Below are positions 5,957 through 55,497 of a DNA stretch of 64,000 nucleotides, one piece after another. The notes beneath the pieces were generated by a model that worked only from the letters and a program-made list of their open reading frames with translations, was not told the DNA's origin and did not search any database. How positions within the stretch are numbered: position 1 is the stretch's first letter; the number at the start of each line of letters is the position of its first letter. This DNA is from Shewanella dokdonensis (GTDB lineage Bacteria > Pseudomonadota > Gammaproteobacteria > Enterobacterales > Shewanellaceae), in the NCBI RefSeq assembly GCF_018394335.1, contig NZ_CP074572.1:1178001-1242000 (forward strand). The letters are read 5' to 3'. The translations under genes and the position numbers were made by a program.

Positions 5957-7854
5957 ATGGTTATGTATTTTACATTAAAGTCTAGACTGCTTGTTTTTTG
6001 TGTATTGTCAATAATGCTTATCTTAACTTTAATGGTAGCACTATCCTCTTATGTCATTCGTGATACCTCATTATCAAATACCAGAAGAGAAGTAAAAGAA
6101 CTCTCCAATACTTTTGCGGCAGATAAAGGACAATGGATACTTGACCGAAAAAATGCCGTGCAAAGCTTGGCCAAAACACTTGAGCAACATTTGGATGAAT
6201 CGCCGGTGCCTTACTTGGTGCTAATCCACCAAGCCATGCAGTTTGGGTTAACATCTATGGGGGATGAACAGGGCAATATGATCCGTCAGGATCCTTCTAT
6301 CGTCACCCCCGGCTTCGATCCTCGGGTTCGGCCTTGGTACAAGGGTGTGAAAAACGCAGACGCAATGTTTGTGACCAAACCCTATGTCAGTGCCGCCATG
6401 AAAAAAATGGTGGTGACGATTGCCGCCCCCGTCAAGAAAAACGGCGAATTCTACGGAGTAGCTACAGTCAATGTTGCCATTGATGAGCTGACCGAAGCCG
6501 TGCGCAAACTACATCTGCCCGGTAATGGTTATGGCATTTTATTTGATCATGATGGAACCATTATCAGCCATCCAGATGCGTCACTCAACGGCAAACAGAT
6601 GCGTGAAATTAATGACAGCTTTAGCCCATCTGAAATGAAATCAATGGCAAATTCCGATGCTTTATATGAGAAAAAATTAATAGTTCAGCGCAGCTAATAT
6701 ATGTCGTCAACGTGCCAAATACCGAATGGGCATTGGCATTCGTCATGAATAAAAGCGATATCATGAATGAAGCCGCAAGTCTGGCGTGGAAGATGATTAT
6801 TACTGGCGTTATTTTTTTGGTTATTTTCACCTTAGCAACCTATATGGTATTTAAGCTGCAATTTAAAGAATTAGAAGATGTCGCTACCGCCCTGCAAAAT
6901 ATTTCTGAAGGTGAAGGGGATTTAACGGTAAGTATCAAAGTAAAAAATGAACGTGATGAAATAGGCCAGCTAGCCGTTGGGTTCAACCGCTTTGTGGCCC
7001 GACTCCACGGCATGATTTCTAGAACCCGAGATATTGCCGAACGCCTCCAAGAACAAGCGAAAATGACCACCAACTCTGCAGAAAATAACAGTCAGAATAT
7101 CTCTGTGCAGCAGAACGAAGTCACCATGGTAGCCACCGCAGTAACGGAAATGGCAAGTGCCACCGAAGAAATCGCCAGCAATGCTGAACAGACGGCCAAT
7201 ACCGCCAAAGAAGCCGTATTACTAACCGATGAAGGTAAGGGACAGGTGTTAAAAAGTCACTCGTCTATCAATGGACTGGCAACCGAAGTCGAAAACGCAG
7301 GTGTCATCATCAAAGAGCTGAACAACCAATCCCAGACCATCAACAGTATCTTGCTGACTATCAGCAATATTGCTGAGCAGACCAATCTGCTGGCACTCAA
7401 TGCCGCCATTGAAGCTGCCAGAGCCGGAGAACAAGGGCGCGGATTTGCCGTGGTTGCAGATGAAGTGCGGGTGTTATCGCAAAAAACGCATGCCTCAACC
7501 CAAGAAATTCAGGACATGATAGAAACCTTACAGCAAACCGCATCGAAGGCGGTGGCGTCGATGAATTCTAGTTACGCTTTAGCAGAAACCAGCGTGTCAG
7601 ATGTCACTGTTGCCAGTGCCAGTTTGGCACATATCTCCGATGCGATAACCCGCATCTCGGACATGGCAAGCCAGATAGCCACCGCGGCCGAAGAACAAAC
7701 ATCGGTTACCGGTGAGATAAACCGCAATACAGAATCCATCAGGGAAGTGTCTGAAAATCTATCCAATGAAGCAGTGGATGCGACCGAGCAAGCGCAACAG
7801 CTTGCGGCGCTGGCACAATCGTTACATCAGGAAGTGTCGCGTTTTAGACTGTAA
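5957..7854 (+). CDS. Methyl-accepting chemotaxis protein, dCache type (one frameshift)
   Basis: About 632 residues after repair. TM1 (residues about 9-32) is followed by a periplasmic dCache sensor ([11 protein letters not shown] and [19 protein letters not shown] are typical). TM2 is around 282-300, then a HAMP domain and the signalling domain with the conserved hairpin tip ([21 protein letters not shown]) near 475-495. There is no C-terminal CheR-docking pentapeptide. The frame breaks in the A6 run at 6671-6676, where a seventh A gives a continuous YEKKINSSAQ reading. The AAGG at 5951 is better spaced for the second ATG at 5963. Ligand probably a small organic acid or amino acid, as for many dCache receptors; this is inference. 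Confidence 0.88.
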
Positions 7855-8712: not shown

Positions 8713-9371
8713 CTACCCGGCATTAGCATATTCGATGGCAAACTTGACCATCTGCGATGCACTCTGGAATCCCAATTTGTTTTTGATATTCTGCCGCACG
8801 GCATCAACGGTTTTGACGCTTAAGCCTAAATTGACCGCAATCTCTTTACTGGGACTGCCCTTACCGACCATGGTAAAAATTTCCAGTTCTCTGTCTGTCA
8901 GCGACTGTATCCCAAATGAGGTGACTCTGTGGTTTCGTCCCTGATGAATCGCTTCGCCTAATAAAGATTTGGTCATGCGATCGCTCAGAAAAATGCCCCT
9001 TGTTGCAGTTTACGGATGGCAACAATTAGGGTGTCGGGTGACTCACTTTTCATCAGATAACCCTTGGCACCAGCACGCAACGCCCGTTCGGCATAGATAT
9101 CTTCTTGATGCATGGAGAACACCAGCACTGTGATGCCATTATCGTGCTGCAATATGGCTTTAACCAACTCCAAACCATTTTGTTGATCCAGTGACAGATC
9201 AACAATCACTAGATCGACATGCTGCAACTGCAATTGCTGCATGGCGGTTTCGGCATTTTCGGCCTGAGCACACACCCGTAGATCTGGACTCTGTTCGATT
9301 AAGCGGGAGATGCCCTCACGCACAATAGCATGATCATCCACCAGCATGATGTTCAGTGTATCAACGTTCAT
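8713..9371 (-). CDS. NarL/LuxR-family response regulator (one frameshift)
   Basis: About 219 residues. The receiver domain has acidic pocket DD (residues 12-13), phospho-acceptor Asp58 in VIVDLSLD and the conserved Lys in YLMKS. The C-terminal LuxR-type HTH is LTDRELEIFTMVGKGSPSKEIA. The frame breaks in the C4 run at 8996-8999 (G4 on the coding strand), where one more G gives QGGIFLSDRM across the linker. Start ATG 9371 has GGAG upstream and overlaps the end of the histidine kinase by 11 bases, so they are translationally coupled. It probably binds the two palindromes in the intergenic region and drives the cytochrome/flavoprotein operon across from the kinase gene. Confidence 0.85.
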
Positions 9372-10792
9372 GATTTGCTCCATTATGGGAGGCAGTTAAT
9401 GCCACGTCACAACTAATGCAAGTCCCTTGTGCGCCAGTCTCGACCTTTAATTCACCGCCTATCATGGTGGCGCGATACTGCATGATCTTTAGTCCCATCG
9501 CCCCACGACGTTGCCCCGCATCGGCAATACCACAGCCGTTATCCTGCACCTTGAGCAATAGCCTATGCCCTTGTTGCTCTAGCGCGATCAACAGCTGCGA
9601 ACACTGGCTGTACTTCATGGCATTGCTGACCGCCTCACTGGCAATATTGAATAAGTGAGCGCTGATCACATCATCATCAAGCAATATGGCGCGGCTGCTG
9701 AAAGTAGCAGTCAATGTCATAGAGATCCTGTACCGATTGCTGCAATGATGATAGCGCTTTCGTCAGGCCATCTGGCCCTTCAGGGACATGGCTGAGGCCT
9801 TGCAGCACGTTATACATTCGCTGCCGCGCCCGGCCAACGGTCTCGACAATCTTGTCGGCCAGTTCGCTCAATGGATCGCCACGACCTTGTAGCTGATTCG
9901 CCATGGCACTGGCCAGAAATGACAAGCCAGTCAGCTCCTGTCCAACGCCATCGTGCAAATCGCCACCAATGCGCCGCCGCTCATTGGTGCTGAGGCGTAA
10001 TAACTCAATTTCCAGATTACGCTGCTCAGTAATGTCACGGGCAACCTGCACCACCCCACTGAGTTCACCATTGTCTTCAACAACAGGATAGGCCGAGACC
10101 TGCAACAGCCGCCCTTGAACCTGTACTTCGCCAAAGGCCGCCTTACTGTCTTTAAATACGCGATTTACCGGGCATTTATCGCAGGAATCCTGCTCATTTA
10201 CACAAGATTGCTGGGTTGGAATGCCCGCATTAGTGGCGTTACTGCGGGCATTTTTGTTCGCCCATAAAATATGGTGGGCGCGATCATGAAATGTCACGCG
10301 CTCGGAGATAACATCAAGAATTAACTGCGCTTTAGACTCGGCACGCTGGCATTCTTCACGGGCTAAGCGCTGTTCCGTAACATCGACTATCAGACAATGT
10401 GTCTGAATAAAATGCCCGTCGTTATCGTAGCGAACATTCCCGTGAACAATGACATATATTTCACGCCCAGATTTGTGTTTTAATTTCCACGGCTGATTAC
10501 GAGACAAGCCCTTGCGTTTAAATCGAGGGAAAGTCACATTGATATGGTATTCCACATCCTTTTTATCATATAAAAAGAAAGCAAATGGTTTACGATATAC
10601 CTCTTCGTATGAATATCCAGTCAACTCTGAAAATGCATTATTAAAATCAATAATAGCGGCATTCTCATCCATAGACATATATGCCAACGGGATATTATCA
10701 AACATCGCACGGTAACGCTCATGCGATATCAATAAATTATTATATCGGTCCTGTAATAGCCCTTCGTGAGAAAAACCTGCAAGAATGTTCAT
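9361..10792 (-). CDS. PAS-PAS-HisKA_3 sensor histidine kinase (one frameshift)
   Basis: About 476 residues, with no membrane segment, so cytoplasmic. PAS1 spans about 25-145 and PAS2 about 150-255, with a small cysteine cluster (CVNEQDSCDKCP, C-x6-C-x2-C). The HisKA_3 phosphorylation helix ERRRIGGDLHDGVGQ follows, then a HATPase_c domain with NAMKYS (N box) and DNGCGI / GAMGLKIM (G boxes). The frame break lies at about 9679-9690 and, unlike most here, looks like one surplus base (RHI-LLDDDVIS). It forms a two-component system with the overlapping response regulator and is divergent from a periplasmic respiratory module. The cysteine cluster may bind metal or sense redox; that is inference. 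Confidence 0.82.
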
Positions 10793-10947
10793 ACGCCCCC
10801 AATCTCAGCGTTGTCCATGTTGTCATTCTAGCTTGTGATTAAAACCCTGTCTGGCCTGATGTCACTGACATTTGGGAGTCTAGTCACATATCTAAAATCT
10901 ACCGCAGACATTTCACTTTCAAGCTCAGTGACAATGCCCATATTTGA

Positions 10948-10965
10948 ATAGGTAATATTACCTAT
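10948..10965. promoter_or_regulatory. Perfect 18-bp palindrome, candidate response-regulator operator
   Basis: ATAGGTAATATTACCTAT reads the same on both strands. The outer halves ATAGGTA and TACCTAT match the AKRRGTA / TACYYMT heptamers known for NarL-family regulators, here diverging with a 4-bp spacer. The adjacent response regulator belongs to that family. Confidence 0.55.
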
Positions 10966-11040
10966 ATTTCAGAATTTATTAAAAAATTAAACAATATAAA
11001 TAACTGTTATTTTTAAAAATAAAAAACACTAAAAATAGCT

Positions 11041-11056
11041 TAGGTAATTTTACTTA
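11041..11056. promoter_or_regulatory. Second copy of the operator-like palindrome
   Basis: TAGGTAATTTTACTTA differs from the core of the upstream palindrome (TAGGTAATATTACCTA) at two positions. It lies 92 bp closer to the cytochrome gene, and a further half-site TAGGTATT follows at 11065. Two related copies in one promoter support a regulator-binding role. Confidence 0.5.
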
Positions 11057-11169
11057 GCACACCCTAGGTATTAAGCATCTGGTTACTGAAATAAAACAAA
11101 ATAAAATAATCATTGCAAAATAACTATTATTTCAAATCATTTTGCATCACCTAAAGAGGGTAAACCAAG

Positions 11170-11529
11170 ATGAAATTAATCACTATCGCATTTTCCATGT
11201 CGCTGTTGATATTAAGTGGCAGCAATATTGCGCAGGCACAAGAGTTCCAGTGGCAAGCCTACCATTTAAAAAATGGGGTCAAATGTCAGGATTGCCACGG
11301 GGCAGATACACAAGCTGCGGTAAAAAACAGCAGTTGTCTGACCTGCCATGGCTCCTATGCTGAGCTGGCAAATAAAACCAAAGATATGCAGCAAAATCCC
11401 CACATGAGTCCGCACTTTGAAAATCTGGAATGCAGCAGTTGCCACGCCAGCCATACCCAACTAACCAACTTCTGCCAGGACTGCCACGGTCCTATCGTCA
11501 GGGACGCTAAGTTCAGCAAAATCAAATAA
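11170..11529 (+). CDS. Periplasmic tetraheme cytochrome c (flavocytochrome c3-type heme domain)
   Basis: A 119-residue protein with a Sec signal peptide (cleavage after AQA, about residue 23) and four CXXCH motifs (CQDCH, CLTCH, CSSCH, CQDCH). Spacing and size match the tetraheme domain of Shewanella fumarate reductase FccA and the stand-alone cytochromes that pair with FAD reductases. It would pass electrons from the quinol pool (via CymA, not in window) to the flavoprotein encoded 24 bp downstream. ATG 11170 follows AGAGGG. The heme and flavin parts, fused in FccA, are encoded here as separate genes. Confidence 0.92.
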   Translation: MKLITIAFSMSLLILSGSNIAQAQEFQWQAYHLKNGVKCQDCHGADTQAAVKNSSCLTCHGSYAELANKTKDMQQNPHMSPHFENLECSSCHASHTQLTNFCQDCHGPIVRDAKFSKIK

Positions 11530-11553
11530 TCCGGGCTATTGAGGGTGACATAT

Positions 11554-13073
11554 ATGAAAGCAACATTGAATAACGTATTTGCCCTGGGCATTCTGGCGCT
11601 TGCCAGACTGCTTACGGGAAAACTATTGAATATACAACCGATATCGCAGTAGTCGGCGGTGGTGCAGTGGGCTTATCGGCTGCCGTCACTGGGGCAGAAG
11701 CGGGTGCCAAAGTGATAGTCGTGGAAAAAATCCTTACCTGGGGGAAGCTCTAATTTTGCCGAAGGGCTGTTTGCCGTTGAAAGTGACTATCAGCGTGCTA
11801 AATCCTACGCGCTCACCAAAGACCAAGCTTATGAACACATCATGGAGTATTCCCACTTCAAGAATGATGGTGCTATCGAACGGGAGTTTGTCGATGAGTC
11901 TGCCGACAATCTGCGTTGGTTAAACAAGCACGGGGTGGATTTTGAAGTGGTGCAGATTTCCCCGAAAGAACCGGAAACCTGGCATCTGATCAAAAACCGC
12001 GAGCAGTTTGTACATGGCGCGGCACTAGTCACCGCCCTGCAAGAACATGCCCAAAAAGACGGAGTACAGTTCTTGATGCGTACGCCTGCCAACACCTTGC
12101 TCTATGAAAATGGCAAAGTCACTGGCGTAAAAGCAAAAGATCACAAAGGCAATGACATTGTCATTCACGCCAAGGCGGTCATTATCGGTACTGGCGGTTT
12201 TGGTAACAGCCCGAAAAAATCGACCAGTGGACCCATTTTGATGGAAAAGATTTCAAACCGACTCTGCCGCTAAATAAAACCGGTGACGGCATCGAAATGG
12301 GGCGTGAGATTGGCGCTGCCCATGAAGGCGAAACCTTAATGCTGCATCCCGGTACCGAAGGGAAAGGCATTATTCCGCTGGGTAACATCTATACCATGAC
12401 TTGGCAGCCAGCCAACATGTGGGTCAATGCTCATGGTAACCGCTTTGTCGATGAAACCGTGGCCTTCAGTTTTGCCCATGCCGGTAACACCATTGGCCGG
12501 CAAAAGGGCCATTACGCTTGGGCCATTTTTGATGATGCCGAGTTGCAACACGCCAAGAATGATGGTGTTGATAACGGCGTCGGCGTGTTGGTTCCGGTGA
12601 TGACCAAGTTGAAAAACATCGATAGCGAAATCAAAAATGCGCTGGCAGCCAAGAGTGAGAGCTTTAAATCTGCCACCAGTATTGAACAGTTAGCCAAAGC
12701 GATTGATGTGCCAGTTGCCAATCTAAAACACGCTTACGATAGCTACAATCTGGCCGCGACAACCCATTACGATGAAGCCTTCAATAAAGATCGCATGTGG
12801 ACACGCCCATTGAATCACGGACGTTTGTATGCCGTGAAACTGATGCCTTACCACTTCACGTCTGTTGGCGGGCTGCGCATCAATACCCAGATGTCCGTAG
12901 TCAATACCGATGACAACCCTATTAAGGGGCTGTATGCCGGTGGTAATGATGTGGGAGGCATCTACTCAGATACCTACACCTTATGGGCCTCTGGACACGC
13001 TTTTGGCTTTGCGACCTACTCTGGTCGAAAGGCCGCCCAAAATGCACTCGACTATATCAAAATCGGTAAATGA
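11554..13073 (+). CDS. FAD-dependent periplasmic reductase, FccA/UrdA-like (four frameshifts)
   Basis: About 507 residues after repair; flavoprotein subunit of the fumarate reductase/urocanate reductase superfamily. Visible are the FAD dinucleotide motif VVGGGAVGLSAA, GSSNFAEGLFAVES, IIGTGGFG, a mobile clamp region, and the C-terminal YHFTSVGGLRINTQ and GLYAGGNDVGGIYSDTY FAD/substrate loops. The C-terminal substrate loop differs from FccA (HHTMGG is replaced by HFTSVGG), so fumarate is not assured. Single-base losses fall in A4 11619-11622, A6 11725-11730, G5 11740-11744 and A6 12214-12219; adding one base at each restores one frame. The signal peptide reads MKATLNNVFALGILALA and its cleavage site is unclear. 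Partner of the upstream tetraheme cytochrome. Confidence 0.85.
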
Positions 13074-13084
13074 GCGGAGACACT

Positions 13085-13981
13085 ATGACTAAGTTAACAA
13101 CGTTAGCCGGTGCCCTGCTTACGGCCGGCCTGTTCAGCACTAGCGTGCTGGCCACAGAAGGTGGCGGTGGCGTTTACCCTAACGGTGCCGAAGGCTATAT
13201 GGCGGGAGCATTACCGCCAGCGGGACTGTACTATCAGAATTTTCTCAACCACTATACGGTTGACCGTTTGAACGATGCCGATGGTCACAACAGTGGTGCC
13301 AACGTTAATTTGCAGGCGAGCGCCGATGTGTCACGTTTCATCTACATGACACACTATCAGCTGTTAGGTGCCGACTACGGCATGTACACCACTATCCCAC
13401 TGGTACACATCAGTGGCGAGCTGCAAGCTGGCCCTGCCGATATCCACTCCAGTGTTAGCGGCCTCGGCGATATTTCCATCGCGCCTATCATGTTAGGCTG
13501 GCATTTTACCCACTGGCATTTTGCCGCAGCGCTGGAATTTACGGCCCCCACTGGCGAATATAACCAGTATCGTTTTGCCAATCCCGGCCGTAACTATTGG
13601 GTAACAACGCCAGTATTTGTGACGACTTACCTGAATAATGGCTTCGAGGCTTCTGCCAAGTTTATGTACGATATCAACGCCAAAAACGATGATACCGACT
13701 ATAAATCTGGTCAAGAATTTCACTTCGATTACGCCCTAGGTTACCACGTAGCGAACTACACGTTAGGCTTAGCTGGATATTATTATCAGCAGACAACCGA
13801 TGATAAAGTGGGCGGCGAAATTTACCAGGATGGCTACAAAGGCAAAGTATTTGCTATTGGCCCGGCGGTAAAAATCGATGGGCAAATGGGGTCTTTGGAG
13901 CTGAGATACCAAAAAGAAGTGAATGCGGAGAACCGCCCCGAGGGTGACAAGTTCTGGGTCAAAGTCACCTTAGCACTCTAA
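13085..13981 (+). CDS. MetA/SphA-type outer-membrane channel
   Basis: A 298-residue protein with a signal peptide (cleavage after VLA) and a beta-barrel pattern ending in an aromatic/hydrophobic strand. The N-terminal EGGGGVYPNGAEGYMAGALPP run is the hallmark of the Phenol_MetA_deg family (PF13557), found beside aromatic and hydrocarbon degradation genes and thought to import hydrophobic substrates. ATG 13085 with GGAG upstream is preferred over an in-frame ATG at 13070 that overlaps the previous stop. Third gene of the cytochrome-flavoprotein operon, so it may bring the electron acceptor across the outer membrane; that link is inference. Confidence 0.8.
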   Translation: MTKLTTLAGALLTAGLFSTSVLATEGGGGVYPNGAEGYMAGALPPAGLYYQNFLNHYTVDRLNDADGHNSGANVNLQASADVSRFIYMTHYQLLGADYGMYTTIPLVHISGELQAGPADIHSSVSGLGDISIAPIMLGWHFTHWHFAAALEFTAPTGEYNQYRFANPGRNYWVTTPVFVTTYLNNGFEASAKFMYDINAKNDDTDYKSGQEFHFDYALGYHVANYTLGLAGYYYQQTTDDKVGGEIYQDGYKGKVFAIGPAVKIDGQMGSLELRYQKEVNAENRPEGDKFWVKVTLAL

Positions 13982-49414: not shown

Positions 49415-50050
49415 CTACACTTCCGCCCAGTTCAGGATCTGACCACTCTTATCGCCAGTGGGTTTCGCATTGCGATTAGGCTTGATAATCAGATTCGGAT
49501 GGGTGATTTCTGTTGATGGTAACGGCGCGATGTTCGGCTCAATAGCGTCTGGATATTTGGCTCGCAGTTCATCGATAACGCCAAAGTCCAACGCACGCTG
49601 TGGACAGGACTCTACGCAAGTAGGCAATAACCCTTCGGCTAAGCGTTCATAGCATCCATCACACTTGGTCATGATGCCTTTATCGTTATCGATTTGTGGT
49701 GCGTCATAAGGACATGCTCTAGCACAGCTACCACAACCAATACAGATTTCGGCATCGATAAGCACCAAGCCATCTTCGCGTCGCTTATGCATGGCCCCGG
49801 TGGGGCAAGCTTTAGTACACGCGGGTTCAGAACAATGGTTACATCCGATCGATGTGTAATAGGCGAATACATCTTGGCTTACAGTGCCATCGCCATTTTG
49901 GTTCCATTGTCCACCCGCATACTCATACACTCGACGCCAGTTGATGCCCACAGGCAGATCTTTGCGATCTTTACAAGAAACCTGGCAGGTTTTACAGCCG
50001 GTACAACGGGTTGCATCAAAATAGAACCCATACTGAATTTTATTTGTCAT
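49415..50050 (-). CDS. dmsB: DmsB, four-cluster 4Fe-4S subunit of DMSO reductase
   Basis: 211 residues with 16 Cys in the four-motif pattern of DmsB/NrfC-type proteins (CTGCKTCQVSC, CNHCSEPACTKACP, CIGCGSCARACP, CDGCYERLAEGLLPTCVESCP). Transfers electrons between the decaheme cytochrome and the molybdenum site of DmsA. Lacks its own signal, so is exported together with DmsA. 13 bp downstream of dmsA. Confidence 0.93.
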   Translation of the reverse strand: MTNKIQYGFYFDATRCTGCKTCQVSCKDRKDLPVGINWRRVYEYAGGQWNQNGDGTVSQDVFAYYTSIGCNHCSEPACTKACPTGAMHKRREDGLVLIDAEICIGCGSCARACPYDAPQIDNDKGIMTKCDGCYERLAEGLLPTCVESCPQRALDFGVIDELRAKYPDAIEPNIAPLPSTEITHPNLIIKPNRNAKPTGDKSGQILNWAEV

Positions 50051-50063
50051 TATCTATACTCCG

Positions 50064-52516
50064 TTAGGCTCTTTGAATTTCGACACGAATGCTATGCTGA
50101 CCATTGCCCTTTGATAGAGGGGTTGGACGGTGCGAAGTCAACACATTGATATTGCCGCCTTTATCGATGCCATTTTCCATTTTGAGCCATGCACCTTCGC
50201 CCAGAGCTGCCACACCTGGCATGACCCGTGGTGTCACCTTGACCGGGATTTCAATGGTGCCGCGACTGTTGAACACTTTCACTTGATCACCCGTTTTCAA
50301 GCCTCGCTGATCCGCATCAATCGGGTTCATCCATACCGCATCTTGCACTGCTTCTCTTAGCCAAGGCACATTGTGATAGCTTGAGTGCACACGGCCTTTG
50401 GTGTGGTAGCCACCGAGTTGCAGTGGGTAGTCATGACGGGTTGCTTCATCTTCAAAGCCATCCCAGGCAGCAACATATTTTGGCAAAGCCGAAATAACAT
50501 CACCTTCGGGTAATTCCCAGTGTTTAGCCAGATAAGCAAGACGCTCAGAGTAGATTTCGATCTTGCCTGACGGTGTTGGCAATGGGTTGGCTACGGGATC
50601 TGCACGGAACGCTTTGTTGGACAGATATGCGCCATTAGGCAGGTACTTACGGTAGATACCTTGCTTTAACATCACGTCTTTATCGGGTAGTCCTGGATTC
50701 ATCGCCTGTGTGGCGGCATAAGCTTCATCTAACCACTGCTTATGAGATTTACCTTTAGTAAATTCCGCTTCAATACCAAGACGTTTTGCTATGCCTACGC
50801 ACATTTCGTACAGAGGTTTGCTCTCAAACATCGGCCCAACCGAGGTGCTCATCTGTACCAGTGTTGCGGTATCACCCGCCACGGCACCTTGGTTAACGAG
50901 ATCTTCGGTTTCAACGTAGGTCACATCGGGCAGGATGATGTCAGCAAATTCGGCGCTGGCATTCATCACGTTATCAATCACTACAATGAACTCGCATTTA
51001 CTGTCGTCGGCCAACACTTGTCTTGAGTAGTTAACGTCTGCATTTTGGTTAATCAGGCGGTTAGTGGCATAGGCAATAATGGCTTTAATGTCGGTGCCGA
51101 GTTTGCCATCGCCATTTTCGTCTAGCTCTTCGTCAGGCAGAATCACCCCATCTTTCAACACTGTGAGATCTTTGCCGTTTTCTACCGCTTCGATGAACTT
51201 GAAGAATGAGATGCGTTTCTTCACTGCGTTGGCGTCATCACCCGCTTCGGCATGGTTTTCCATGCTGAAGACATTCATTGATGCTGACATCGGAATACCG
51301 CCATGGTTAGTGCCGGGCAGTCCGAGTTGTCCCAGTAGAATTGGCAGCATGAACGCGGTACGCACGTTGTTTTCGCCAGCGGAGTGACGGCCAATAGACA
51401 TAGCCACCTGTACAAAGGGCGCTTGAGCATTTGCCAGATCGTGTGCCAGATCCCAGATAGTGCTTTCTGGAATACCGGTAATTGGCGCCGCCCAAGCGGG
51501 CGTTTTCGCGTTGGCGCCGGGGGTAAGATCGCCAGCGACTGGATTGTCGAGAATGTACGCCTTGTAGCTTTCGCTATATGGCACGCCATCGGGCATGGTG
51601 TTTTCGTCGTAGCCAACGCAATATTCATTGAGGAAGGCTTGGTTAACGCGATTTTCGGTGATCAACACATAGGCAATGGCTTCCACTAAGGCGGCATCTG
51701 TCCCTGGGTGAATAGGGATCCATTGATCTTCTTTGCCTAGGCTAGATTCGGTATAACGTGGGTCGATGATAATGGTTTTGAAGTTATTTTTTTGTTTCTG
51801 TCTGACAAAGTCATAGCCTTGACCAGAGCCACTCATACCCAATTCTGACGGGTTGTGCCCAATCATTAACACCAGGTCTGAATTAGCCATTTCAGCCACA
51901 GATGAGCCAAAGAGATAGTCTATCTCTGCGCCATAAGTATATTTACAGGCTTTGATATATTGGGCAAAACTGAAGTTGCCATAGTCGCCGAGATAACCAC
52001 CGGATAGATTCAGTAACCGGTTCAAGCAGCCGCGGTTGGAGAAGCTGTACATGGCCCCTGGACCACCTAAGGCATAAATAGCTTCATTACCATATTGGCT
52101 GGTGATACGTTTTAACTGCTCGGCCACTGTGTCTAAGGCTTCATCCCAGCTAATACGCTCGAATTGACCGCTGCCACGAGGCCCCACGCGTTTCATTGGA
52201 TATTTAAGCCGTTCTGGGGCATACACTCTTTTACGTAATGAACGACCGCGCAAGCGGTGCGTACGTTATGGTTACCATAAACATCGTCGGTGGTGAAATT
52301 GGACTCAATTCGGGTGATCACGCCATCTCTGGAAAACACCCGCACCGGACAGTGTGAACCGCAGTCCACACAACATGCTGACCAGTTCAGTTTTTCTTCA
52401 GTGAGTTCTTTGACTGGAGGTGTTGGTGTGGCATCACTTGAGCTTGAATCACAAGCGGATAATGTTGCCGCACAGCCGAGCGCTGCGCTGGCTTTCAAAA
52501 ATTCACGTCTTTCCAT
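50064..52516 (-). CDS. dmsA: DmsA, molybdopterin DMSO reductase catalytic subunit (one break)
   Basis: About 818 residues. N-terminal twin-arginine motif RREFLK and an immediately following lipobox LSAC (Cys near residue 22) suggest a Tat-exported lipoprotein, as known for extracellular Shewanella DmsA. A 4Fe-4S site (CCVDCGSHCPVRVF) is followed by bis-MGD domains (DEALDTVAEQL, GHNPSELGMSG, GGYHTKGRVHSSYHN). The break at about 52253-52262 is best explained by collapse of a CTTGCTTG tandem (4 bases): restoring it gives ACLRGRS, the family consensus. The molybdenum ligand region looks otherwise intact. Confidence 0.92.
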
Positions 52517-52568
52517 AAGTTACCTCTTTTATTTTTCGGGAAGGAGTTCATCCCTTCCACTAGTCTGT

Positions 52569-54538
52569 TCATAAGGAGATGGAATAGCTCAGCATTAGCT
52601 GATGGGCGTTGTAGTTATGGTCTAGTTCACCTAAGGTGATTAGGCCATTTACAGCATCCACTGCGACATTGGCGTAGTCAGTGTCGTAATAACGCTCATA
52701 GCGGTAGTCCACACGCAGTTGGCTGGCATCGCTCAACCGATACTTCGCGTATACCCCTACGGAGTGGTTATATTGGTAGTCGTCGCCCTGTTGGTCGGTT
52801 ATGGCTGCGTTATCTGAGTCGCTATTACTGTTGGCAAACAGATAATCGCCCCCAAGATAAGCTTGTTCTGTAGCAGCCCCTGGTACTCAAAGCCACCACC
52901 TAAAGAGACAAAGCGGTCGTTGATTTCAGCTTTCCATTGGGCACCGGACTGATTGGCATCAATCCATTCTTGACTTACAAAGCTATAGAGAGAGAGTTGC
53001 TTGTTAACTAAATAGTTAACGCTGAGCTGATAGCTATAGTTACGGTCATCCGTCAGACCAATCTTGGTATTGGTGTAATCGTCATTGGCGAACCTTAAGT
53101 TCATGACCACAGAAAGCGAAGGTAACGGCTGATGGAATAACCGCATCTCAGCTTCAACACGATCCCGGTCGGCCAAGTAGTATTTACGCAGTAACGGATT
53201 TTCTTCTACGTTGGTGAATTCGTTAGCCAGATAGCGGCTACCATCACGACGACTCACGCCGCCCTTGAGCTCTATCTTCCAAAGCTCCAGCCCCGTCATT
53301 TTTACTTTGGCCCACAGTTGGTGCTCATCCGTGGTTTCGCGATCGCTATAATTACGTTCTTTGCGGTCAAATTGGTAACCCGCATCGATGCGATAATCTT
53401 TAGCAAGGCGATATTGGAATTTTGCACTACCGCGAGTGGATTTAGTGTCTAATGCCAAATTGTTGAACAGAATACCGGTCTTTGCATTGAAGTCGTACTG
53501 AGGGAATTCAAAACTTGAACTCTTGTTATCCCGATCGCTGTAACGACCCGCTAACTGAATGCGCAGGCGATCGCTCGCCATTAGCATATAGTTGGCGTCG
53601 ACATCTAAGGTGTTGATCTGCCCATCCCAACTCTGGATAGGACTTATCTGAGCATTAACGAGAGAACTGTCCTGGATCATACGGCCGGCAGAGACTCTCG
53701 CGTCAAACACACTCTGTTGCCCACGAATATTCCCTGACAGAGTGAGTTGATGCGCTTCATTATCTGGATCTGGAGCCAACAAACTGCCGTATGTCTCGTG
53801 GTAAATTTCCTGGGCATGATTGTTATAAACACTGCCGAGGTAAGAGATAGCGGCTAACCAGTTATCCCCACTCAAGCTTGATGATGCCAGTAACTCATTG
53901 GTACGGCTGTCGATTGGTTGGGCAAGATTAATCGGGCTAGGTGTGGCGACAGACACACGTTTGTGCCCCAATTTCTCTTCACTGCGAAATGACAGATCGC
54001 CATTTAACGCCAAACCCAACATATCCGTTTGGGCATCGGCACCCAAGGTGAAGCGGTTGCGTTCCACACCGAGAACCGGTGAATAAGGCGTAGCAGAGAT
54101 AAGTTGATCTTGGCTGAAATAATACGGAGTTAACGTCTTATCACTTTTGAGATAATTTAACTGATCGTAGTTGGCATACAGTTTAAGGTCGTCTTTGGTA
54201 ACCTTAATGCCTGCATCTCCATTTTTCATTCCAAGGTTATTAGCGTTAGTTTCAACTCGCCAGCCACTGTTGCTATTAACGGAAAGCCGCCCATTAACCG
54301 CCGCAAAAGTCCCGGTATCTTCCTGTCCTAATACGTTTGCCGCATGAACGTCATCAATATTGCTGTAACCTATGCCAACCGCAACATCGCCGCTTAGCAT
54401 TGACGGATCTGTACACCCCTTACATTTCCAGGTATTAACGTTAACCTTGCTGGTATTGGCTTTAGTTAAACTAAAATCTGCCGCCATTACTGGGGTTGTG
54501 GCGAACACAATAGCCAAAGTGATGAGATTGAGTTTCAT
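52569..54538 (-). CDS. dmsF: DmsF, MtrB-like outer-membrane barrel (one frameshift)
   Basis: About 656 residues after repair. Signal peptide (cleavage after VMA), CXXC near the mature N-terminus (WKCKGC), then 26-28 beta-strands in the MtrB/PioB pattern. It sheaths the decaheme cytochrome DmsE and forms the electron conduit across the outer membrane. The C5 run at 52849-52853 lacks one base; repair gives LGGDYLFANSNSDSD and a C-terminus ending in LMLSYSISL. Sits 11 bp after dmsE. Confidence 0.9.
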
Positions 54539-54549
54539 GAGTCTCTCCC

Positions 54550-55497
54550 CTAGCGCTGTAGCGCTTTCCCTTGTGGATGATTAGACCCGTGCACTTGAGT
54601 GTGGCAATTCAAGCAACTTGCGCCGGCAGTAAAAGCCGAGTTGCCCTCAGCGCCATAAGGACGGGAGGCATGAACATTGCCGCTATGGCATTGCTGACAA
54701 AGCAGTGGTGCACGAACTTTGAGCAAGTTATCGTTCATACTGCCGTGAGGAGAGTGGCAGTTGTCGCAGTTGTCGGTCACAGGTGCGTGTTCCCACAGTT
54801 TGGGCCCGCGCTTTTCGGCATGGCAGCTGTAACAAGTCTCGTTTAGATTGTTTCGGTTTAAATCTGCATCGGTTTGAGAGCCGTGAGGATTATGACAATC
54901 ACTGCACTTCATCTCATTTGACTTCAGCGGATGGCTGGAACGTTGGTTGATTTCCATCTTTTGTTGCGTATGACACTTAGTACAAACAGCATTTTCTCCT
55001 TGTGGTTCCAAGATAGGATCTTTGGCTACGTGTATCTGATGGCAGCTGGTACAGCTCATATTTTCAAGATTATGTGCTGAAGAGTGCCAACTCTTACGCT
55101 TGGCATCCTGATGACAACTGAGACAAACACTGTTCTGTGCCTCTGCGGTTGTCGATGCCTCGGGGCCAAAGTCGATCATTGGCTCCTTACCACCTAGGTT
55201 GTGCTTGCCCATTGGACCATGACAGGCCTCACACTGCAGTCCAGCCATTGGGCTTTTGCCAGAAGTTGCACCATGGACCCCCTTAAATATCTCCATGACC
55301 TTGGCATTTTTTCTGTGGCACATAAGACACGTGTCTGCGCCTTTAGTGGAGTAATTACCCTGATTAAATTTATCAGTCAGCGTTTTCATAACGGCATCTT
55401 GCCCAAGACCACTCCAAGGAGTGGCTTGTCCCGATAAAGGGATACAGCAAAACGTCATCAGTGCTGCTATTAACAATCGTGCATTGAAGGTAAGCAT
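54550..55497 (-). CDS. dmsE: DmsE, periplasmic decaheme cytochrome c (MtrA-like)
   Basis: 315 residues with signal peptide and exactly ten CXXCH motifs (CLMCH, CEACH, CLSCH, CTSCH, CTKCH, CSDCH, CYSCH, CDNCH, CQQCH, CLNCH). Length and arrangement match MtrA/DmsE. Takes electrons from CymA-type quinol oxidases and passes them through DmsF to DmsAB at the cell surface. First gene of the operon; intact frame. Confidence 0.95.

Follow-up and report, generated by a model that had tools for sequence, protein, structure and literature searches.

Reductases with separate heme and flavin subunits are already known from the Mrd/Mcc system of Geobacter sulfurreducens AM-1, in which a periplasmic flavin reductase and a multiheme cytochrome are encoded in one operon, and from the Fcc subunits of Wolinella (PMC4427408; this and the other papers cited are represented by excerpts). 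In UrdA, residues R560, R411 and H520, which are reported to be conserved throughout the fumarate reductase family, hold the substrate carboxylate, and the R411A and R560A mutants are inactive (PMC7921117). The vinylphenol reductase VprA of Lactobacillus plantarum (EC 1.3.1.74) acts on decarboxylated vinyl derivatives and is under LysR-type control (PMC10295242). In Eggerthella lenta, the two-gene operon Cgr1/Cgr2, with its secreted flavin adenine dinucleotide (FAD) reductase lacking the active-site residues of fumarate reductase, reduces a neutral unsaturated lactone (PMC5953540). Here, we describe a respiratory gene cassette in a 64,000-nucleotide stretch of Shewanella dokdonensis DNA (the window; G000:C1:1178001-1242000, from a 4.13 Mb genome in one contig). 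With moderate confidence, its sequence suggests that a periplasmic reductase, supplied with electrons by a cytochrome, acts on a neutral phenolic (hydroxyaryl) C=C acceptor, such as a 4-vinylphenol. The cassette consists of the following features.

8713..9383, minus strand: response regulator of the LuxR/NarL type, frame-split (receiver 8985-9383, GerE 8713-8976; Pfam Response_reg 1.9e-27, GerE 3.7e-15)
9361..10792, minus strand: PAS-PAS-HisKA_3-HATPase sensor kinase, frame-split (Pfam HATPase_c 9361-9720, PAS and HisKA_3 9677-10792)
10949..10964, no strand: palindrome TAGGTA-N4-TACCTA, the only exact site in the genome and probably the operator for the response regulator
11041..11056, no strand: second, imperfect copy of the palindrome with 1 mismatch
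11170..11529, plus strand: tetraheme cytochrome c3 of 119 amino acids (Cytochrom_c3_2 2.1e-18; 4 CXXCH motifs; signal peptide by eye)
11545..13073, plus strand: fragmented FAD reductase, VprA-like 'GDTY' type (FAD_binding_2; intact relatives have a signal peptide by eye; range from matching open reading frames against Shewanella loci)
13070..13981, plus strand: outer-membrane barrel, PF13557 (Phenol_MetA_deg; 9.6e-70)

The regulator and kinase (8713-10792, minus strand) are divergent from the cytochrome-flavoprotein-barrel set (11170-13981, plus strand). Pfam and open reading frames place all five genes of the original prediction where it had them, although the respiratory set that it called four-gene-like has three structural genes. 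The kinase (HisKA_3 and HATPase) and the regulator (receiver and GerE) have the domains of a NarL/LuxR-type two-component system, and the barrel scores 235.8 bits against a gathering cut-off of 22. In the window and in relatives, the heme and flavin domains lie on separate genes, unlike in the single chain of the FccA type.

The flavoprotein, in which the predicted loop HFTSVGG is present, has the fold of UrdA and FccA, a fold that also serves 3-ketosteroid and cyclohexanone dehydrogenases. Its best NCBIfam match is VprA (NF053717), with 325-363 bits for six full-length members and 80.9 and 175.6 bits for the window pieces, below the cut-off of 600 bits. In a quick LG+G4 tree, calculated without bootstrap, the flavoprotein and lactobacillar VprA fall within one clade of 73 sequences (Shimodaira-Hasegawa-like approximate likelihood-ratio test, SH-aLRT, 98). 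Outside this clade lie both the NRxGG (fumarate) types and the tetraheme FccA-type protein of the same genome; two sequences labelled as NR type (L105 and L106) do not join the main NR group and instead fall beside L054. The original prediction had named as evidence against itself a position within a clade of fumarate or urocanate reductases that keep the substrate residues; this result was not obtained. Of the phylogeny that it proposed, the tree covers the comparison with the FccA type and the NRxGG sequences, and its members include no characterised sequence of UrdA, of IfcA or of a reductase for acrylate, methacrylate or cinnamate.

The side chains that hold the carboxylate in fumarate and urocanate reductases are absent. 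At the position of FccA R402 (UrdA R411), arginine occurs in none of the 120 listed homologs versus all 37 NRxGG-type comparison sequences, the window having F; the position of FccA R544 (UrdA R560) is Y in all 120 listed homologs and in the window; and that of FccA H504 (UrdA H520) is F, Y, L or I in all 120, never H, with F in the window. Neither R nor K is found in the R402 and R544 columns among the listed homologs, and the H504 column holds H in 36 of the 37 comparison sequences, with one gap. Since the latter were picked by their NR motif, only R402 (37/37) and H504 (36/37) count as independent. The positions that in FccA and UrdA serve carboxylate binding and proton donation are mostly aromatic, some of the residues coinciding with those of vinylphenol reductase, for which reason a neutral phenolic alkene appears the most likely acceptor.

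VprA further resembles the cassette flavoproteins in that GDTY replaces the NRxGG loop, R402 and R544 are missing, and H154 and W153 are found in 11 of 11 and 9 of 11 VprA sequences, respectively; it differs in having no cytochrome gene beside it (by eye, two loci). In contrast to FccA and UrdA of Shewanella, the cassette combines a heme protein on its own gene with the loss of the carboxylate side chains. The likeness to Mrd/Mcc rests on gene layout and description rather than on sequence; Mrd is Tat-exported and acts on a small enoate, and the excerpt describes neither a barrel nor a kinase pair (PMC4427408). Cgr1/Cgr2, also likened by description and not by sequence, differs in needing Fe-S clusters (PMC5953540). 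The original prediction had regarded the combination of split subunits with a dedicated outer-membrane channel as unusual; split heme and flavin subunits as such are not. To the architecture of the known split flavin/cytochrome reductases the cassette adds a channel, a regulator of its own and a substrate pocket that differs from theirs.

The flavoprotein was detected in 8 of 129 Shewanella genomes, and its C-terminal piece, at 1e-40, in 4 of 60 relatives, both counts including its own genome. Intact cytochrome-flavoprotein-barrel sets are present in S. yunxiaonensis, S. abyssi, S. sediminis, S. mangrovi and Ferrimonas futtsuensis, and cassette variants in Ferrimonas, Geobacteraceae, Seleniivibrio and Brenneria. 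Neighbourhoods were compared at 32 loci by BLAST against reference neighbours. The barrel, searched with four reference sequences, so that distant barrels could be missed, adjoins the flavoprotein in 9/9 loci of clade A (Shewanella, Ferrimonas and UBA2219) and 3/3 of clade B (Geobacteraceae, Brenneria and Seleniivibrio), and in 0/7 Sutterellaceae-branch and 0/13 other loci. All nine clade A loci, and the window, have a four-heme cytochrome next to the flavoprotein, a seven-heme cytochrome lies near the flavoprotein in two of the three clade B loci, and kinase/regulator pairs are found beside 7 of the 32 loci. The best explanation of this pattern is a self-contained, conserved and patchily distributed cassette that would serve anaerobic respiration. 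The dedicated module of the original prediction is supported, and so is the barrel as its constant component (12/12 clade A and B loci). Several sources label these flavoproteins as fumarate reductase subunits, and they are often misnamed.

Other gene arrangements occur near GDTY flavoproteins. A block encoding two HGD-D proteins, a BcrAD-type activator, a CdhC-like protein and a MinD/CooC-like ATPase was identified by Pfam in L108 (11093-15922) and by BLAST in L016, L017, L019, L022 and L024, the hosts being S. yunxiaonensis, UBA2219 and Sutterellaceae relatives. In Serratia and Dickeya (L028 6245-11452 and L033 6373-11437), genes for an iron-sulfur protein, an NrfD-like membrane protein and a small secreted protein precede the GDTY flavoprotein (by eye), perhaps as another route for feeding electrons.

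The aromatic nature of the acceptor, as originally predicted, is supported not only by the VprA-like profile and clade but also by the regulators of sister cassettes. The regulator that diverges from the cassette in S. abyssi, S. sediminis and G271 is an activator with XylR_N, V4R and sigma-54 domains, an architecture shared with the phenol sensors DmpR, CapR, PoxR and MopR. Three members of a second GDxY branch that are linked to a cytochrome, from Geomonas, Nitrospiraceae and Trichlorobacter, have the same architecture beside them. Of the six regulators, the two from Geomonas and Nitrospiraceae have V4R below its gathering score of 31 (L027, 30.7; L030, 27.2). The closest solved sequence to the sister regulators is the phenol regulator CapR/DmpR (1.5e-98; 3.7e-97), and all six share, without exception, the phenol-anchoring His and Trp together with the Cys/Glu/Cys/Cys of the Zn site (H89, W114, C135, E158, C161 and C169 of L107). 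His100 of DmpR is kept in phenol sensors, with Tyr instead in XylR (PMC7264223; also PMC10715001). Unlike DmpR and its relatives, the sister regulators stand beside a reductase cassette, and no such regulator is present in the window cassette. A sigma-54-like site was found on the operon strand at all six XylR_N loci (0.83-0.96), using our own scoring scheme without a shuffle control and with partly coding stretches in the kinase group. Since kinase-group stretches reach 0.81 (L014) and 0.83 (L136), only four sites (0.86-0.96) stand out; the same scan of the window, L013 and L108 stretches gave no sigma-54-like site with a GG/GC core. Three further regulators (L025, L031 and L043) matched a sigma-54 activator without XylR_N, and L016 covers no more than the end of a regulator of this kind; these were excluded from the count.

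The cassettes with a kinase-regulator pair share a palindrome, which is the probable operator of the response regulator. The exact sequence was searched in six genomes of about 4 Mb from this group, representing approximately four lineages (G000 and G210, G194 and G226, G005, and Ferrimonas G064). One site was found in each of five genomes and two in G194, six of the seven lying directly upstream of the cassette, in 6/6 genomes, while a reversed control pattern gave 1, 1, 0, 1, 0 and 0 sites. The seventh (G194, L145 1501-1516) lies upstream of a gene for a methyl-accepting chemotaxis protein (by eye), perhaps reflecting chemotaxis to the same compound. The window has three sites with at most two mismatches, versus 1.01 expected, a number reached in 6 of 100 shuffles. 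Beyond this group, Seleniivibrio has one site with one mismatch (6552) before the flavoprotein, where 51 of 200 shuffles give one match within two mismatches, and a Geobacteraceae locus has a two-mismatch site before the flavoprotein (2673) and an unrelated one (314), with 0.09 expected.

Taken as a respiratory system, the cassette would receive quinol electrons through a membrane cytochrome of the NapC/NirT family, of which the genome encodes a single member, and these would pass via the periplasmic tetraheme c3 cytochrome to the separate periplasmic FAD reductase, which would close over the acceptor and reduce its C=C bond. The PF13557 barrel may admit the acceptor, presumably a poorly soluble compound. 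The kinase-regulator pair would switch on the operon via the nearly unique palindrome, a role that in sister cassettes falls to the DmpR-type phenol sensor acting with sigma-54.

Several observations weigh against a phenolic alkene as the acceptor. All cassette members score far below the VprA cut-off, VprA is not sister to the cassette flavoprotein clade within the 73 sequences, and several pocket positions differ, W294 being present in 114/120 homologs and 0/11 VprA sequences. Lactobacillar VprA has no signal peptide (by eye), and the coupling of the cassette enzyme to a cytochrome is putative. No phenolic acid decarboxylase, sought as a possible partner, was found in the genome, and vinylphenols would therefore need an outside source. 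The phenol-type sensors sit in sister lineages, while the window cassette has a PAS kinase with no assigned ligand; each trio of XylR_N regulators corresponds to one clade of the flavoprotein tree, so the six amount to at least two pairings rather than six; the score of 0.83 reached by the sigma-54-like site in S. sediminis and in G271 is no higher than that of the best match in one kinase-group stretch; and such regulators may respond to phenols other than the substrate of the enzyme.

The original prediction favoured an enoate, such as a cinnamate-like acid, and a split flavocytochrome respiring an unsaturated aromatic acid would be in keeping with the fold shared with UrdA and FccA, with the layout of the methacrylate reducer Mrd/Mcc and with the aromatic context of the cassettes. 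It would require the carboxylate to be held by non-classical residues, since all three side-chain contacts are gone from the 120 listed homologs (Y, F and F in the window), and the best named profile is that of an enzyme whose substrates are decarboxylated; we consider it unlikely. An aromatic acceptor reduced elsewhere than at an alkene, through quinone-like, nitro, azo or ring reduction, is likewise rather improbable. The dehydrogenases sharing the fold, the ring-reduction gene kinds (HGD-D, BcrAD) near some relatives and the regulators, which inform only on phenol-like ligands, would accommodate it, but by far the top-scoring NCBIfam family is a vinyl (C=C) reductase. The reading as a reductase of a neutral phenolic alkene is preferred.

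The regulator, kinase and flavoprotein genes are each split across frames in the window. The regulator is intact in S. mangrovi (L013) and the sister L136, kinase orthologs in L013, L136 and L108, and the flavoprotein in L136, L013 and others. Compared with the L136 copy (83.3% nucleotide identity across 5289 aligned bases), the coding sequence has five frame-breaking gaps, two in the regulator-kinase genes, three in the flavoprotein and none in the cytochrome and barrel, each representing bases missing in the window. Decay to a pseudogene would be consistent with these gaps, of which only two lie near a run of at least four bases (longest nearby runs 2, 3, 3, 7 and 6; such runs cover 18% of columns), a proportion that makes the homopolymer argument for sequencing error weak. 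However, the ratio of nonsynonymous to synonymous substitution (dN/dS) of the flavoprotein pieces is 0.011 and 0.013 (dS 0.82-1.05, dN 0.011-0.012), with 0.039 for the cytochrome and 0.049 for the barrel, which indicates that these proteins were under strong purifying selection and that the breaks stem from faulty assembly or arose very recently, homopolymer context being compatible with either. The cytochrome and barrel are intact, and splitting also affects other genes: when window genes were matched by open reading frames of at least 120 amino acids from seven Shewanella loci, 17 of 25 occupied a single frame and the other 8 were spread over two or more, including Rnf-like genes and a chemotaxis receptor (both named by eye). 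Given the intact copies in relatives and the flavoprotein dN/dS of about 0.01, assembly error is likelier than decay, and a decayed cassette seems very improbable. Throughout the genome, FAD_binding_2 matches come in fragments and many genes appear frame-split, so that gene calls require care.

The same genome holds further flavoprotein loci. A second cassette (L149 4253-8916; G000:C1:1363252-1367915) comprises a frame-split, Tat-like flavoprotein (by eye), the only other PF13557 barrel of the genome and a divergent XylR_N/V4R/sigma-54 regulator, and supports the theme; against a plain phenol ligand, this regulator keeps the anchoring His and not the Trp (by eye). At a third locus (L150 1133-3238; G000:C1:197632-199737), a frame-split FAD_binding_2 gene beside a tetraheme c3 cytochrome gene forms another split flavocytochrome. 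Elsewhere in the window lie a frame-split gene for a methyl-accepting chemotaxis protein near the cassette (5957-7854, by eye), which is one open frame in the sister genome, and a DMSO (dimethyl sulfoxide)-reductase-like operon of the extracellular respiration type, which also encodes a decaheme cytochrome and a large barrel (49415-55497, by eye).

Cinnamate or acrylate reductases of Vibrio may be the subject of reports elsewhere. In the open-licence literature, no paper was found on the cassette, on a Shewanella cinnamate flavocytochrome or on vinylphenol or ethylphenol in Shewanella, although reports may exist outside it. It is possible, if somewhat doubtful, that the GDxY clade of 'fumarate reductase-like' flavoproteins as a whole consists of reductases for neutral phenolic alkenes, which in Shewanella, Ferrimonas, Geobacteraceae and Deferribacterota would form part of respiratory cassettes that also supply a cytochrome, a channel in the outer membrane and either private or phenol-type control, allowing these bacteria to breathe lignin-derived vinylphenols or similar monomers. 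Whether the cassette respires neutral phenolic alkenes can be tested directly, given its small size and the single clear target of its regulator. If it does, lignin-rich sediments would hold an electron acceptor that has so far not been counted, and the GDTY/WH signature together with the palindrome would offer a way of finding such respiration in genomes.

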